Source: an uncultured bacterium
GTDB taxonomy: Bacteria; Bacillota; Clostridia; Lachnospirales; Lachnospiraceae
Assembly (NCBI GenBank): GCA_947177425.1
Contig: CAMWUN010000012.1
Location: forward strand, 1 to 64,000
Direction: 5' to 3'
Length of the DNA stretch: 64,000 nt
This document shows positions 34,051-46,953 of this stretch, one piece after another. The position numbers and the translations under genes are program-made. The notes under the pieces are model-generated. The model was not told the DNA's origin and searched no databases. It saw only the letters and a list, made by a program, of their open reading frames with translations. Every line of letters begins with the position of its first letter. Positions within the stretch are counted from its first letter, which is position 1.

Positions 34051-36024
34051 ATGGCAGGAAAAAGGAATATAGGACTTGGCATGGCAGCCATTGCAGCAGG
34101 CGCGGGTGTAGCTGCTGTTGCAGCAAAAAACCACAAAAAGGCGGAAAAGAAAGTGGCAATGAAAAAAGAAGCTGACCGGAAGCAGGAGTACCGGAATACT
34201 GAAATAGGAAAAAACGAAAAGAACAGCAAAGGGATTTACTATTCCAACGGCAATTATGAGGCATTTGCAAGACCCAGAAAGCCCGAAGGAGTAGACGACA
34301 AAAATGCTTATATTGTCGGAAGCGGTCTGGCTTCACTGGCAGCCGCATGTTTCCTGGTACGTGACGGCCAGATGCCGGGTTCCCATATTCATATTCTGGA
34401 AGCCATGGACATTGCAGGCGGCGCCTGTGACGGGATTTTTGATACATCCAGAGGATACATTATGCGCGGGGGACGTGAGATGGAGAACCATTTTGAATGT
34501 CTGTGGGATTTGTTCCGCAGTATCCCCTCCCTTGAGACTCCCGGTGTTTCTGTGCTGGATGAATACTACTGGCTTAATAAAGAAGACCCCAATTATTCCC
34601 TCTGCCGTGCTACGGTAAACTGCGGCGAAGATGCACATACGGACGGCAAGTTTAACTTAAGCCAGAAGGGCTGTATGGAAATCATGAAATTATTTATGAC
34701 TAAGGACGAAGACTTGTACGATAAGACTATTGAAGATGTCTTTGATGACGAGGTGTTTAACTCCACCTTCTGGTTGTACTGGAGAACCATGTTTGCGTTT
34801 GAAAACTGGCACAGCGCCCTTGAAATGAAGCTTTATTTCCAGAGATTCATTCATCATATTGCAGGGCTTCCCGATTTCAGCGCCCTTAAGTTTACGAAAT
34901 ATAACCAGTATGAGTCGCTGATTCTTCCTATGCAGAAATATCTTGAGGAGGCAGGCGTTGATTTCCAGTTTAATACGGAAGTGACTAACGTTATTTTTGA
35001 ATTTGAAAATGACAGGAAGGTTGCAAAGGCAATTGAATGTAAAGTAAAAGGCGTGGAAAAGGGAATTATGCTTACCGAAAACGACCTTGTATTCGTGACC
35101 AATGGGAGCTGCACTGAGGGAACCATTTATGGGGATCAGAATCATGCGCCTAACGGGGATGCAGAAGTGAGAACCAGCGGATGCTGGAGCCTGTGGAAAA
35201 ATATTGCAAAACAGGATCCTTCCTTTGGGCATCCGGAAAAATTCTGCTCGGATGTGGCAAAGACAAATTGGGAATCTGCCACTGTCACAACCCTGGACGA
35301 TAAGATTCTTCCTTATATTACAAATATCTGCAAACGTGACCCGAAAAGCGGCCGCGTCGTGACCGGAGGTATTGTAAGCTGTATGGATTCCAGTTGGCTG
35401 ATGAGCTGGACAATCAACAGGCAGGGACAGTTTAAAGAACAGGATAAGGATAAGGTATGTGTCTGGGTATACGGATTGTTTACGGATGTTCCCGGCGATT
35501 TTATCAAGAAGCCCATGAGGGAATGTACTGGTATGGAAATTACACAGGAATGGCTCTACCACCTGGGAGTACCCGTAGAGGATATCCCGGAACTGGCGCA
35601 GAACAGCGCGGTATGTGTTCCTACCATGATGCCTTACATTACGGCATTCTTTATGCCAAGAGCCAAGGGCGACCGTCCCGACGTTATTCCTGACGGATGT
35701 GTGAACTTTGCATTCCTGGGACAATTTGCAGAAACCCCAAGGGATACTGTGTTTACCACTGAGTATTCTGTAAGGACAGCCATGGAAGCTGTGTACGGGC
35801 TGCTGGGCGTGGACCGGGGTGTGCCGGAAGTCTGGGGAAGTGTTTACGATATCCGTGAACTGCTGGACAGCAGCGTAAAGCTTATGGACGGCAAGTCCCC
35901 TCTGGAGATAGAACTGCCAGGGCCGCTAAACGCATTGAAGAAGCCCATCCTGCATGTGGTGAAAGGAACTGTGGTGGAGAAAATACTGCGTGACCATGAT
36001 GTGATAAAAGAAGGCATGATATAA
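34051..36024 (+). CDS. ohyA: oleate hydratase (MCRA family)
   Basis: 657-residue FAD enzyme of the myosin-cross-reactive-antigen family that adds water to cis-9 unsaturated fatty acids to make 10-hydroxy acids. FAD-binding signature AYIVGSGLASLAAACFL near residue 90, then GGACDG and RGGREMENHFECLWDLF; E and other catalytic-region motifs are intact. About 60 residues precede the usual start: a hydrophobic Ala/Gly-rich helix (IGLGMAAIAAGAGVAAVAA) followed by a Lys-rich segment, which may anchor it to the membrane where fatty acids enter. It protects gut bacteria against unsaturated fatty acids. Confidence 0.93.
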   Translation: MAGKRNIGLGMAAIAAGAGVAAVAAKNHKKAEKKVAMKKEADRKQEYRNTEIGKNEKNSKGIYYSNGNYEAFARPRKPEGVDDKNAYIVGSGLASLAAACFLVRDGQMPGSHIHILEAMDIAGGACDGIFDTSRGYIMRGGREMENHFECLWDLFRSIPSLETPGVSVLDEYYWLNKEDPNYSLCRATVNCGEDAHTDGKFNLSQKGCMEIMKLFMTKDEDLYDKTIEDVFDDEVFNSTFWLYWRTMFAFENWHSALEMKLYFQRFIHHIAGLPDFSALKFTKYNQYESLILPMQKYLEEAGVDFQFNTEVTNVIFEFENDRKVAKAIECKVKGVEKGIMLTENDLVFVTNGSCTEGTIYGDQNHAPNGDAEVRTSGCWSLWKNIAKQDPSFGHPEKFCSDVAKTNWESATVTTLDDKILPYITNICKRDPKSGRVVTGGIVSCMDSSWLMSWTINRQGQFKEQDKDKVCVWVYGLFTDVPGDFIKKPMRECTGMEITQEWLYHLGVPVEDIPELAQNSAVCVPTMMPYITAFFMPRAKGDRPDVIPDGCVNFAFLGQFAETPRDTVFTTEYSVRTAMEAVYGLLGVDRGVPEVWGSVYDIRELLDSSVKLMDGKSPLEIELPGPLNALKKPILHVVKGTVVEKILRDHDVIKEGMI

Positions 36025-36067
36025 AATAAATCTATAATTAATTTTAAATCTATATTTTATTTTAAAT

Positions 36068-36120
36068 TTATCCCCGTAAGGACAGGAAAGCTGACAATCC
36101 TGATTCTTACGGGGATAAAA
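36068..36120. terminator. bidirectional terminator
   Basis: TATCCCCGTAAG pairs with CTTACGGGGATA between two convergent genes, with A/T runs on both sides. Confidence 0.8.
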
Positions 36121-36139
36121 TTTAATTATTATAAATTTC

Positions 36140-36517
36140 TTAGTCCCACATCCCGTTTTCTTTTGCAGAAAGGGATTCTTTGTGGCATGCGGGACATGGA
36201 ATGTTTTCTATGTCCCCGATAAGTTCTGTTTTGCTGCCGCATTTACTGCAGTTTCCAACAAATTCCTTATGTACATCCGGTAATGTCAATACCGGAACAC
36301 TTGTTATACTGTTACAGTGTTTACAGTGGGACAGTTGGAATCCAAAATCATACAGAGGGAACATGGTATCTCCCACACATTCTTTGATTTCCTTCTGGAT
36401 ATCCTCCGGATAGATAGCAGCCACCGATTCTAAAGTCCCGTGCATAATTCCGCATCCGGTTATACACTGCCAGTCTGCCCTGCATGAGGAGCAGGTTACT
36501 TTTACAATTTCTCCCAT
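36140..36517 (-). CDS. small Cys-rich (zinc-ribbon-like) protein of unknown function
   Basis: 125 residues with five CxxC-type pairs: CSSC at 9-12, C18/C22, CKHC in the middle, CSKC, and CPAC near the end. This fits two or three zinc ribbons. No catalytic motif is recognised. It follows the protease-flagellin gene on the same strand 23 bp downstream of that gene's stop, so it may be co-transcribed with it. Confidence 0.65.
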   Translation of the reverse strand: MGEIVKVTCSSCRADWQCITGCGIMHGTLESVAAIYPEDIQKEIKECVGDTMFPLYDFGFQLSHCKHCNSITSVPVLTLPDVHKEFVGNCSKCGSKTELIGDIENIPCPACHKESLSAKENGMWD

Positions 36518-36540
36518 TTATGCCCCTTTCTCAGATACGG

Positions 36541-38403
36541 TTAACCATTTAAAAGCCCCAGAATAATATCTGACTGGCGGTTTGCCTGAGCTAACATAGC
36601 CTGACCTGCCTGTAAAAGAATCTGGTTGTTAGAAAATTTAACCATTTCTTCCGCCATATCCGTATCCCTTATGCGGGATTCTGCCGTAGTTGTATTTTCC
36701 ACCACATTATCCAAGTTGGCTATAGTGTGTTCAAGACGGTTTTGGATTGCGCCGTAATAACTTCTTACATTACTTACATAAATAATTGCATTTTTAACTA
36801 AATTAATGGCATCGTCGGCATCCTGCGTTGTTTTCACATTCATCTCTCCCAGTCCAAGAGCATCCGCACTCATCTGGTAGAAGTTTATGTCAATGTGCTG
36901 TCCGGCCTCAGCGCCCACCTGAATGGGTACATTAGCTGCACCGCTTGAAAAGTCATATGAAATCTGGGACGGGTCAATAAAAAAATTGCCGGCATAGCCT
37001 GGCGTTCCGGCTCCCCCGTCTGATAAGCTGCCGTATATAACGGAACCGGCGCCGTCTTTGGATTCGTAAGTTAACTTCCTGACAAATTCCGTCAAATCTG
37101 CATCACCGGCGCTAAAAAGACCCCTAATCTGGGCTTCTGTCATTCCCGTCCGGTCATAGATGGCATTGTTTAACCTCTTGCCGTTAAGAAGATCCCCAAA
37201 GACCAAATCCATTCCCCGGGCAATATTGGCTCCAGTTACATCCGTTGTTCCGCCATTTTTAATGTTTGCAAGATAACCAATATAGGCGCAGGCAAGATAG
37301 CCGTGTCCGTAAGGTCTGCCGGTTACGCTGAATTTCTTTAAATAGTTACTGATATTTCCATCCTGACTGTTATCATTTTCGCTGGTCAGCCGCTCTGCAT
37401 AAAGAAGCAGTTCGTTGTTCCATCCAGTAGTAAAGCCGCCTCCGGCAAGCTGTGCCGTCCCTTCAGTGAACCAGGTCGGGTACTTTTCACCTTTTCTTCC
37501 GCTCATGCCGTCGGTCAGGTTATACTGCATGACCGTATGCATCAGTTCATGGGTGATGGTAGATTCAAGAACCTCCGCCCGTGAGCCGGTTCCGCTTGCG
37601 TCCGCATCATTGAAGTCGGAGGCATCCACCTTAATATACATGGAATATGCCGGACCGCCGCCATAGCTGTACCTGTATCCGGCAAGAGCCAGCGTATTTC
37701 CGGGACCGTCTATGAAGGATATATTCAATGCCAGTTGAATCTGTGTACTACCCTGTGCAGTCTGGAAAGACGGGAAAGCCTGAAAGATGGAATTGACTGC
37801 ACTGGGAACCAGAGTATTTGCAATCTTATCTGCCAGCGCGCTTCCGCTGCTGACAGTAACACCCGGGGCGCGGGCCATTGTATTATCTGACAATCCGTCC
37901 ACCGATACAGACTGGTTTGCAAAATCAATGGTAAGTTTATATTCATAATTCTGCATATCTATAGCTGACCTGGGCGAATACCCGGCGTCAGGAAACAGTC
38001 TGCGCTCATTAAATACAGTATATCTTGATGTGTTATCAATTTCGTTCTTGATCTGCTGTATTTCCAGATCGATCAGAGAACGATCGTTGTCTGTTAAGGT
38101 ACCGGTTGCGGCTTTGACAGCCAGTTCATTGGCCCTGTGAAGCATTTCATGGATTTCATTGAGCGCGCCTTCTGCGGACTGGACCATGGAAATACCGTCC
38201 TGGGCATTGGCTGACGCCTGCGTAAGACCCCGTATCTGCCTTCGCATCTTCTCAGAAATGGAAAGCCCTGCGGCATCGTCTGCCGCACGGTTAATCTTGT
38301 AACCGGAAGATAATCTCTCCGTAAGCGTGGTCTGCGTTTTAGAGTTTGTTTTTAAATGCCGGGCCGCATTCCATGCGGCCAAATTTGTTTTTACTGAAAG
38401 CAT
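36541..38403 (-). CDS. flagellin with embedded metallopeptidase (flagellinolysin)
   Basis: 620 residues. Residues 1-140 are a normal flagellin N-terminal D0/D1 region (SSGYKINRAADDAAGLSISEKMR; QDGISMVQSAEGALNE). The last ~95 residues are the flagellin C terminus (QNRLEHTIANLDNVVENTTTAESRIRDTDMA, QAMLAQANRQ). The middle ~350 residues replace the surface-exposed variable domain and carry a zinc-protease motif HELMH at 285-289 with a likely third ligand E314 in WFTEGTAQLAGG, a gluzincin arrangement as in flagellinolysins. The filament would display thousands of protease copies. No other flagellar gene is in this window. Confidence 0.92.
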   Translation of the reverse strand: MLSVKTNLAAWNAARHLKTNSKTQTTLTERLSSGYKINRAADDAAGLSISEKMRRQIRGLTQASANAQDGISMVQSAEGALNEIHEMLHRANELAVKAATGTLTDNDRSLIDLEIQQIKNEIDNTSRYTVFNERRLFPDAGYSPRSAIDMQNYEYKLTIDFANQSVSVDGLSDNTMARAPGVTVSSGSALADKIANTLVPSAVNSIFQAFPSFQTAQGSTQIQLALNISFIDGPGNTLALAGYRYSYGGGPAYSMYIKVDASDFNDADASGTGSRAEVLESTITHELMHTVMQYNLTDGMSGRKGEKYPTWFTEGTAQLAGGGFTTGWNNELLLYAERLTSENDNSQDGNISNYLKKFSVTGRPYGHGYLACAYIGYLANIKNGGTTDVTGANIARGMDLVFGDLLNGKRLNNAIYDRTGMTEAQIRGLFSAGDADLTEFVRKLTYESKDGAGSVIYGSLSDGGAGTPGYAGNFFIDPSQISYDFSSGAANVPIQVGAEAGQHIDINFYQMSADALGLGEMNVKTTQDADDAINLVKNAIIYVSNVRSYYGAIQNRLEHTIANLDNVVENTTTAESRIRDTDMAEEMVKFSNNQILLQAGQAMLAQANRQSDIILGLLNG

Positions 38404-45299: not shown

Positions 45300-45618
45300 A
45301 GTTACAAAGTCATATCTGATGAATAACTGAAGGAGGGTTCCCCTTTCATCAGAGGTTATTGATAAAATTTTTACCATGTCTGAGGTTTCCTTAATGCACC
45401 AGACAAAATATAGAGGTATAATCACTGAGGCAGGATCATTGACGATGCCTCCTTGGGAACCGGCCTTCCGGCTGGTGAAACCTCCAATTAAGTCTGTCAG
45501 TCCATTCGGTGGTGATTTATGTTTTGGCTGGTTGGGAAGCCCCAGGCTATACCTGTATAAGCCGCTAGGTTGTGTATCCGCCTTCTGGAAATGGATACCT
45601 GCCAGAAAGGATAAAACC
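45300..45618 (+). ncRNA. candidate bridge RNA region of the IS110 element
   Basis: IS110-group elements encode a structured RNA in the long non-coding left end that guides target and donor recognition. This left end is ~320 nt and shows several stem-loops: AATAAC...GTTATT (45332-45361), ACCGGCC/GGCTGGT (around 45458-45477), and GGCTATAC/GTATAAGCC (around 45545-45563). Exact RNA ends and guide loops cannot be determined here. Confidence 0.4.
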
Positions 45619-46953
45619 ATGCAATACCAAAAAGTACTTAAGATGCTGGAAAGCATCCCCTATCTCTCAGTCGGGCTTGATGTCGGGGCAGACTTCACAT
45701 GGATGTCCATCATGCTCCCAAACGGCACCCTTGCCGGGAAACCTTTTAAGATCGTTCATTCCGATCCCCAGTCCCGGGAGCTTGCCGTCGCAAAAATAAA
45801 GGAAGCACAAGAGGCGTATTCTCTTAAAAGCCGCTGCTTCCTTGAGTCCACCGGGATCTACCACATCCCACTCCTGTGCTTCCTTCGCGATAAGGGTTTT
45901 GACTGCTCTGTCATTAATCCTATCATTACTAAGAATAGCACAAATCTGAACGTAAGAAAACTGCATAATGACAAATTTGATTCAAAAAAAGCTGCCAAAG
46001 TCGGTTTGGATGCTTCCCTGAAGACTTCCATCATCCCTGATGATGAGGTCATCGACCTACGTAACCTGGTCCGGGACTACTACTACTTCAAGGATCTGCA
46101 GTCCGCTGTCGTCCTGAAGCTCACTGCTGAGCTGAAAGTGTCATTCCCCGCATACCGGAAAGTCTTCAGCAAGGTCACCACCCAGACTTCCTTAAAACTT
46201 CTGGACGCCTGCCCGCTTGCGGAGGATCTTCTTGCTGCCCCTAAGGAAACGGTGGTGGAAATGATCCGTTCCACGGCACGTTTTGGGGAAAAGTATGCCC
46301 TGGCCAAGTATGATGCCCTGCGGACCGCAGCGGAAGATGCCGCCATTTTTGGGCGGGCCCTGAAAAGCAATTCTGTCCGCATAAGGCTCTACATAGACTC
46401 TTACCGGGAGTACCAGAAACGTCTTGACACAATCATGGAAGCAATCCATGCTTCTGTTGATGGCCTGAAAGACAGTCCGGTCTATGACCGTATCCTTCTT
46501 CTCCAGTCACTGCGCGGCGTAGGCTTCATGAGCGCGGTTGTCCTAGTCGCAGAAATGGGCTCTTTTAACCTGTTTCCTTCCCCGAAGAAGCTGTATGCCT
46601 ACTTCGGCCTGGATCCTGCCGTGAAGCAGTCCGGGAAGTTCAACGGGGAGAAGGTACATATGTCAAAAAGGGGTTCCAGCCTCGCCAGACGCATCCTGCA
46701 TATGGTGGCGCTCAATAACCTTAAGGTGGACAAGGGCAGCGGGATACCTGTAAATCCGGTCATCCACAGCTATTATACCGATAAATGCAAAGCAAAGAAG
46801 AAAAACGTGGCTGTCGGAGCTGTAATGCACAAGATCTGCAACATCATCTTTGCTATGCTCCGGGACAATAAGCCGTTTGAGGTCATCACTCCTCAGGAAC
46901 ACTGTAAACGGTATCTGGCAGCGCATCCTGACAAGGTACAGAGCGCAGCTTAA
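45619..46953 (+). CDS. IS110-family transposase/recombinase
   Basis: 444 residues from the ATG at 45619. An N-terminal RuvC-like DEDD domain (GLDVGADFTWMSI, FLESTGIYH, LHNDKFDSKKAAKVGL) is followed by a coiled-coil linker and the C-terminal Tnp_IS116/IS110/IS902 domain (LQSLRGVGFMSAVVLVAEMG, YAYFGLDPAVKQSG), with the candidate catalytic serine in MSKRGSSLAR. The frame is complete, so the element may be active. The open frame extends upstream to 45376, but that part overlaps the structured left end and does not look like protein. Confidence 0.92.
   Translation: MQYQKVLKMLESIPYLSVGLDVGADFTWMSIMLPNGTLAGKPFKIVHSDPQSRELAVAKIKEAQEAYSLKSRCFLESTGIYHIPLLCFLRDKGFDCSVINPIITKNSTNLNVRKLHNDKFDSKKAAKVGLDASLKTSIIPDDEVIDLRNLVRDYYYFKDLQSAVVLKLTAELKVSFPAYRKVFSKVTTQTSLKLLDACPLAEDLLAAPKETVVEMIRSTARFGEKYALAKYDALRTAAEDAAIFGRALKSNSVRIRLYIDSYREYQKRLDTIMEAIHASVDGLKDSPVYDRILLLQSLRGVGFMSAVVLVAEMGSFNLFPSPKKLYAYFGLDPAVKQSGKFNGEKVHMSKRGSSLARRILHMVALNNLKVDKGSGIPVNPVIHSYYTDKCKAKKKNVAVGAVMHKICNIIFAMLRDNKPFEVITPQEHCKRYLAAHPDKVQSAA

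Follow-up and report, generated by a model that had tools for sequence, protein, structure and literature searches.

A flagellinolysin gene and a conserved small CxxC-protein gene read as a two-gene late-flagellar unit in a Lachnospiraceae genome

The 64,000-nt stretch of Lachnospiraceae DNA analyzed here (the window) encodes what is, judging by its sequence, almost certainly a new member of a known family, the flagellinolysins (MEROPS M101), i.e., flagellins that contain a metallopeptidase. The gene is followed by a conserved small gene, hereafter the partner, which encodes a 125-residue protein with four CxxC pairs and is very likely linked to flagellinolysin in function. Here and in numerous relatives, the two genes together read as a late-flagellar unit composed of a putative sigma-28 promoter, flagellinolysin, the partner, and a candidate terminal hairpin (Table 1). 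The explanation considered on balance somewhat probable as a whole is that an M101 flagellinolysin is encoded in this two-gene unit and that its partner would act before export. The preliminary description of the locus had proposed a flagellinolysin in a host-glycan context; the former identification stood, the latter was not supported, and the conserved CxxC neighbor had been missed.

Table 1. Features of the flagellinolysin-partner unit, with positions in the window
Feature	Position	Strand	Basis or remark
Flagellinolysin (metallopeptidase-containing flagellin), 620 aa	36541..38403	-	ORF without internal stop
Flagellin N-terminal domain, residues 4-138	37990..38394	-	Pfam PF00669, E 2e-37
Flagellin C-terminal domain, residues 534-618	36550..36804	-	Pfam PF00700, E 2.5e-24
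Peptidase-bearing insert, about residues 138-470	36994..37992	-	Stretch used in alignment A1
HELMH zinc motif (H285, E286, H289)	37537..37551	-	Sequence motif, alignment
WFTEGTAQ, residues 311-318; predicted third zinc ligand E314, 25 residues past H289	37450..37473	-	Motif, alignment
Residues 260-263, D260 and D263 invariant	37615..37626	-	Alignment A2; role by analogy with PMC5595980
Partner, 125 aa, four CxxC pairs, end GMWD	36140..36517	-	23 nt past flagellinolysin stop codon
Partner ribosome-binding site candidate GAAAGGGG	36523..36530	-	Read from sequence
Sigma-28-type (FliA/SigD) promoter candidate TAAT-N16-GCCGATAA	38511..38538	-	-10 element begins 115 nt upstream of ATG
Stable hairpin after partner, candidate transcription-unit end	36062..36125	-	-30 kcal/mol, z -6.65

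As the preliminary description had stated, flagellin N and C termini surround an insert carrying HELMH (285-289) and E314, an arrangement confirmed by the Pfam domains and the motif positions. The 620-residue protein scored 209.1 bits against the NCBIfam model NF033876 ("flagellinolysin"), narrowly passing its cut-off of 205 bits, and 210.4 bits in a genome-level search with the same model. Its assignment to M101, the MEROPS family of flagellinolysin (PMC7643111), is based on this score together with the flagellin ends, the invariant H/E/H/E residues, and the published spacing from His to Glu; H285, H289, and E314 are predicted to form a gluzincin-type zinc site. A Pfam search with the full-length protein returned no peptidase family at E values up to 10, a search limited to the motif-bearing part matched Peptidase_MA_2 at E 0.052, far under the cut-off of that model, and a PDB sequence search with the insert found no relative under E 0.7 (best E 0.71). 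A second HExxH motif (HEMLH, 85-89), located inside the flagellin N-terminal domain, is incidental.

In alignment A2, which comprises the window protein and 58 of 61 usable loci, H285, E286, H289, W311, F312, E314, and G315 are invariant across all 59 full-length proteins, as are D260, D263, and YGHGY (365-369). By analogy, either D260 or D263 probably corresponds to Asp206, a calcium-site residue of Clostridium haemolyticum FliA(H). Among 101 proteins, HxxxH followed by WFxEG was found in 93, of which 92 keep the catalytic Glu, the exception (L112) having HGLMH instead of HExxH; seven of the remaining eight have HExxH with a different later motif (EGxAE), and one (L182) has AG at that site. 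For eight close pairs, dN/dS was 0.02-0.09 in the insert and 0.015-0.09 in the flagellin core, indicating about equal constraint. The invariance of the active-site residues and the low dN/dS of the insert thus suggest that the enzyme is being kept. Relatives apparently devoid of HExxH, considered as candidate dead copies, were rejected as such, since the motif is present in their translations. At the L032/L112 locus, the HGLMH motif coincides with a flagellin N-terminal part that is out of frame, and the partner gene is still there; the L112 copy looks like a decaying one. In the flagellin core of the window protein, R90 and E114, both invariant in the 59 rows of A2, and L94 presumably match the residues through which Salmonella flagellin contacts TLR5; this protease flagellin may therefore still be seen by TLR5.

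The linkage between partner and flagellinolysin was evaluated in named genome contigs, using the best 80 of 205 loci found from alignment A1. The partner is present in 64 of these 80, invariably as a single downstream gene on the same strand, a count that speaks for the clade of the window and not for all M101, since A1 (19 of 31 rows) consists solely of members of its own family. In 54 clean cases, the gap between the two genes measures between -8 and 222 nt. At locus L100 the contig ends where the partner would sit, and five of the 64 partners adjoin broken flagellinolysin copies (L084, L096, L102, L113, and L121), the partner frame itself being incomplete in L102 and L113. Most of the best 80 loci are labeled Lachnospiraceae or its genera, with the rest labeled bacterium, Clostridiaceae, Clostridia, Eubacterium, and once Bacillus; several labels mention the rumen, reticulum, omasum, cecum, or rectum of sheep, goat, deer, or water buffalo, or else a cow. 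The nearest relative among the loci is L055 from Lachnospiraceae bacterium 1XD21-87, with 92% identity over the whole protein.

Co-occurrence was also determined in genome samples, many of whose members are MAGs; counting the genome of the window, flagellinolysin-positive genomes numbered 10 of 37 for the genus, 20 of 397 for the family sample, and 8 of 398 for the phylum sample. Within the genus (thresholds of E 1e-20 for flagellinolysin and E 1e-6 for the partner), the partner occurs in exactly the 10 genomes that have flagellinolysin, and the two are adjacent by coordinates in 10 of 10. A flagellin-domain match was present in all 37, flagellinolysin being the sole one in G005, and the idea that the partner is a general flagellar gene was rejected because it is found in only 10 of these 37 flagellin-bearing genomes. 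In the family sample, for which scoring was limited to the top 4 flagellinolysin and top 11 partner candidates of each genome, 16 of 397 genomes have the partner: 15 of the 20 with flagellinolysin versus 1 of the 377 others. Fisher tests of co-occurrence, in which kinship is ignored, gave 3e-9 (genus) and 4e-22 (family). All 15 pairs of the family sample are same-strand neighbors, with the partner downstream in 8 and upstream in 7. The one genome with a partner and no flagellinolysin match (G277) has a contig end on one side of the partner and other genes on the visible side. A partial Mantel analysis of 40 pairs was not discriminating, as partner distance correlated with insert and core distances at 0.42 and 0.41, respectively.

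A possible equivalent of the partner was observed outside the family in G731, where two flagellinolysin genes 1.36 Mb apart are each followed by a gene for a 104-residue CxxC protein. These proteins have a partner-like start (MG, C9, C12, an aromatic residue at 16, G21, and G23) and end in aromatic-Asp. Comparison with the partner profile by hhalign gave 94.9% over the first 24 residues only, and the A4 profile at E 1e-3 did not find them. In the family of G731, the 104-residue protein was detected in 1 of 9 genomes and in none of the 8 others. The two copies share 77% identity, such that both may stem from a single duplication of the pair.

With regard to its own sequence, the partner is probably a zinc-ribbon protein that binds zinc. 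Alignment A3, comprising the window partner and 33 of 54 partner rows, contains eight invariant cysteines (four CxxC pairs), W16, G21, G23, F58, L116, and a C-terminal GxWD, an invariance that is partly by choice, since four CxxC pairs and a WD end had been required of the rows beforehand; without that requirement, the WD end occurs in 64 of 64 partner frames and four CxxC pairs in 62 of 64. An MG start, G21, and the WD end are common to the partners, and no signal peptide is visible. The window partner exceeded no Pfam or NCBIfam cut-off, FliS and FliW were not among the nine Pfam families that it matched at E values up to 1, and no match to it was found on plasmids or phages at E 1e-3. Of the other 33 partners, L108 alone passed a Pfam cut-off (Trm112p, 24.3 versus 22, one zinc knuckle). 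Weak NCBIfam matches of the 34 partners were gauged by E values, and the best PDB match of the partner profile had an E value of 0.011. HypA was weakly matched by 23 of the 34 (best E 0.0012), below the Pfam gathering cut-off of 28.9 bits, and a search of 33 partners at E 0.0003 returned no HypA match.

A sensitive profile added five genomes that have a partner cousin and no flagellinolysin match, and the partner is accordingly viewed as the branch linked to flagellinolysin within a broader family of small zinc-ribbon proteins. Four of the five cousin hits are longer proteins or fragments, the fifth (G083) has the same length and an end other than WD, and no flagellin genes were found beside any of them in the stretches examined. 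Longer cousins of about 150-190 residues with a WD end were noted at L188 (5157-5612), L189 (5382-5837), L190 (4982-5542), and L192 (1745-2320); they sit away from flagellin genes, one beside a gene that by eye resembles a macro domain, and those at L188, L189, and L190 matched no Pfam family over cut-off.

The candidate promoter, TAAT-N16-GCCGATAA, is close to the sigma-28 consensus. A site matching RCCGATAW was located at most 300 nt upstream in 33 of 64 relatives with usable DNA (reversed sequence, 2; shuffles, 0.9), and 31 of the 64 lack it. Genome-wide, the sigma-28 pattern is hardly enriched (21 matches versus 16 in the backward control), and thus only the position and conservation of the site count in its favor. 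Of the four other flagellin genes tested in the same genome, three have no clear site, and the one encoding a 315-residue flagellin beside flgK, flgL, fliD, and fliS has a site that agrees at 7 of 8 positions. The hairpin downstream of the partner was not among the five sites, all on the plus strand, returned by a simple terminator scan. Among other observations, the same genome encodes a giant flagellin of ~1,300 residues (L013 510-4421, contig C2 108000-116000) with seemingly repeated surface modules, and a flagellin frame of similar length is present in a second genome of the genus (G032).

Partnerless loci and genomes indicate that flagellinolysin can do without the partner, which is helpful and not indispensable. 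The partner is missing beside 15 of the best 80 loci, 13 of which belong to a single clade that includes Butyrivibrio and Pseudobutyrivibrio loci. On the insert tree (98 of 101 proteins; a quick method, with some long branches), partnerless flagellin forms belong mostly to one 14-row clade, the others being L094, L099, L029, and L038. G311, G313, G415, G624, and four of the five genomes of family f39 have no partner match at all, and in the fifth (G746) the sole match is a longer cousin, unlinked and on a different contig; among the seven other flagellinolysin genomes of the phylum sample, no partner was found beside flagellinolysin in G624 and the five f39 genomes.

Non-flagellin M101 relatives with signal peptides (by eye) were identified at L042, L043, L045, and L046; these are probably secreted, and one of them has dockerin-like repeats. 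Signal-peptide forms occupy three places on the insert tree among the flagellin forms, and two of these placements adjoin partner-bearing flagellin forms (L043 with L035; L042 with L034, L037, and L041), a nesting that suggests repeated moves between filament and secreted protease. No partner was found beside these four loci, nor at E 1e-3 anywhere in G128 and G337, in which a signal-peptide form was found. In G229, no partner surrounds its two signal-peptide forms (L164 and L165), and the one partner found lies between the gene for a 490-residue flagellin and a flagellin-form flagellinolysin. The partnerless state of the signal-peptide forms in these three genomes is the chief ground on which the action of the partner would be placed before flagellar export.

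The surroundings of the unit were compared across the same 80 loci, as the preliminary description had situated the insert next to fucosidase and sulfatase genes and had raised a link to mucus or host matrix. A GH95 fucosidase gene is indeed encoded on the opposite strand, starting 397 nt from flagellinolysin; the sulfatase is 7.6 kb away. Neighbors were scored at E 1e-15 in flanks of ~4 kb, or less near contig ends; flanks of 3 kb were available on each side in 63 of the 80 loci, and of at least 2.5 kb on the fucosidase (upstream) side in 67. GH95, DUF436, MCRA, TetR, and CutC neighbors recur solely in L055 and the histidine kinase neighbor solely in L056, so that none of the eight window neighbors tested besides the partner is kept beyond one of the best 80 loci. 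Because GH95 recurs in L055 alone, the fucosidase-based argument falls, and a host-glycan context was rejected as far as the fucosidase is concerned. The MCRA-family gene (34051-36024, plus strand), presumably of the oleate hydratase type, is convergent with the flagellinolysin unit. Elsewhere in the window, a transposase-like gene (IS110-like by eye; 45376-46953, plus strand) is located between trpF and trpB in a minus-strand trp operon that is otherwise contiguous, with the flanking trp frames open.

Flagellin is unfolded while it crosses the export channel, and M101 enzymes depend on both zinc and calcium. We infer zinc binding, proteolysis, and filament assembly for the window protein, and a cytosolic place and biochemistry for the partner, along the following lines. 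Flagellinolysin would be exported unfolded via the flagellar secretion channel and then assembled, and the filament surface would display a zinc-dependent and probably calcium-dependent endopeptidase, a proteolytic filament in this organism being a fair inference by analogy. The partner would stay in the cytosol and handle flagellinolysin before export, binding the peptidase part or controlling its zinc such that folding or cutting would not occur until the enzyme is outside; the fixed Trp-Asp at its C terminus may serve in docking. Chances are about even that the partner has such a pre-export role, be it as inhibitor, export chaperone, or in zinc handling. A more specific version, put forward tentatively and at somewhat less than even chances, is that of a cytosolic guard: a zinc-ribbon protein dedicated to flagellinolysin in this lineage would keep the enzyme unfolded, zinc-free, or inhibited until export and would have been lost wherever the protease became a signal-peptide form.

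Alternatively, the partner may be a zinc-ribbon regulator that, by binding RNA or DNA, adjusts how much flagellinolysin or flagellin is made without touching the enzyme. Nucleic acids are common ligands of zinc ribbons in general, and the weak Pfam, NCBIfam, and PDB matches include zinc-ribbon transcription and RNA-binding proteins; however, these matches are weak (PDB best E 0.011), the partner is absent from the 27 genus genomes that have flagellin and no flagellinolysin match as well as from G128 and G337, whose found protease form has a signal peptide, and adjacency persists while the gene order flips, all of which makes a regulator unlikely. A metallochaperone, which would activate the peptidase by supplying its zinc in a HypA-like manner rather than hold the enzyme off, would fit the HypA likeness of 23 of the 34 partners and of a G731 104-residue protein, which passes the Pfam HypA cut-off (30.3 versus 28.9). 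Yet this likeness is weak for the 125-residue group, and it can be reasoned that a zinc domain, once folded, would need unfolding before it could be exported and that zinc is available outside, rendering such a loader decidedly doubtful.

The locus may also be an ordinary flagellinolysin gene only, with the small gene a linked passenger that has no tie to the enzyme, as might be proposed from the partnerless flagellinolysins and from the different neighbors in Hylemonella (text available of PMC7643111). This is improbable given the exact match of presence in the 37 genus genomes, the lack of similar conservation for the other eight neighbors, and the maintenance of the pair through order flips and on deep branches under purifying selection (partner dN/dS of 0.07-0.32 in the eight close pairs). 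That the insert is catalytically dead and only a filament surface is hardly credible in view of the ligands and catalytic Glu kept in 92 of 93 full-motif proteins, the insert dN/dS of 0.02-0.09, and two family members reported as active (PMC5595980, PMC7643111).

The abstract of PMC7643111 describes the biological function of flagellinolysin and its activity in other organisms as unclear. A conserved partner gene offers a direct handle on how the cell makes a protease and exports it through the flagellar channel unharmed, and on what purpose the enzyme serves; it also shifts attention from a chance fucosidase neighbor to a genetic unit kept in 10 of 37 genus genomes and 15 of 397 in the family sample. 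Were the partner an inhibitor, it would provide a natural reagent for proteolytic filaments; were the cytosolic guard proposal true, it would represent a factor, undescribed in the papers found, for protecting and exporting an enzyme-bearing polymer. No paper on such a partner was present among the matches listed in the free-licence PMC literature, and the two-gene form is absent from these matches and from the available text of the two flagellinolysin papers.

Small size and CxxC pairs are shared by the partner with HypA and generic zinc-ribbon proteins, from which the partners differ in their MG start, G21, and WD end, the window partner falling under all Pfam and NCBIfam cut-offs. The peptidase domain of clostridial collagenase (M9) is the nearest structural relative of M101 (PMC5595980), and the window protein has no Pfam M9 match at E values up to 10. 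Two flagellinolysins have been proven to be metal-dependent proteases (PMC5595980, PMC7643111), one of them HgrFlaMP of Hylemonella gracilis, which depends on Zn and Ca (PMC7643111). Like the window gene, HgrFlaMP is encoded at an orphan locus away from flagellar genes and has the same architecture; unlike it, the HgrFlaMP gene has NUDIX and MarR genes as neighbors, and no CxxC partner is mentioned in the available text (PMC7643111). FliA(H) of C. haemolyticum binds zinc through His233, His237, and Glu262 and uses Glu234 for catalysis (PMC5595980); as in the window protein, flagellin ends flank a gluzincin insert with 25 residues from the second His to the Glu, and a plain flagellin is encoded in the same genome (PMC5595980). 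The main text of PMC5595980 nowhere mentions a chaperone, zinc ribbon, or operon. In contrast to the C. haemolyticum gene, which is part of a flagellar cluster, the window gene stands alone with its CxxC partner.
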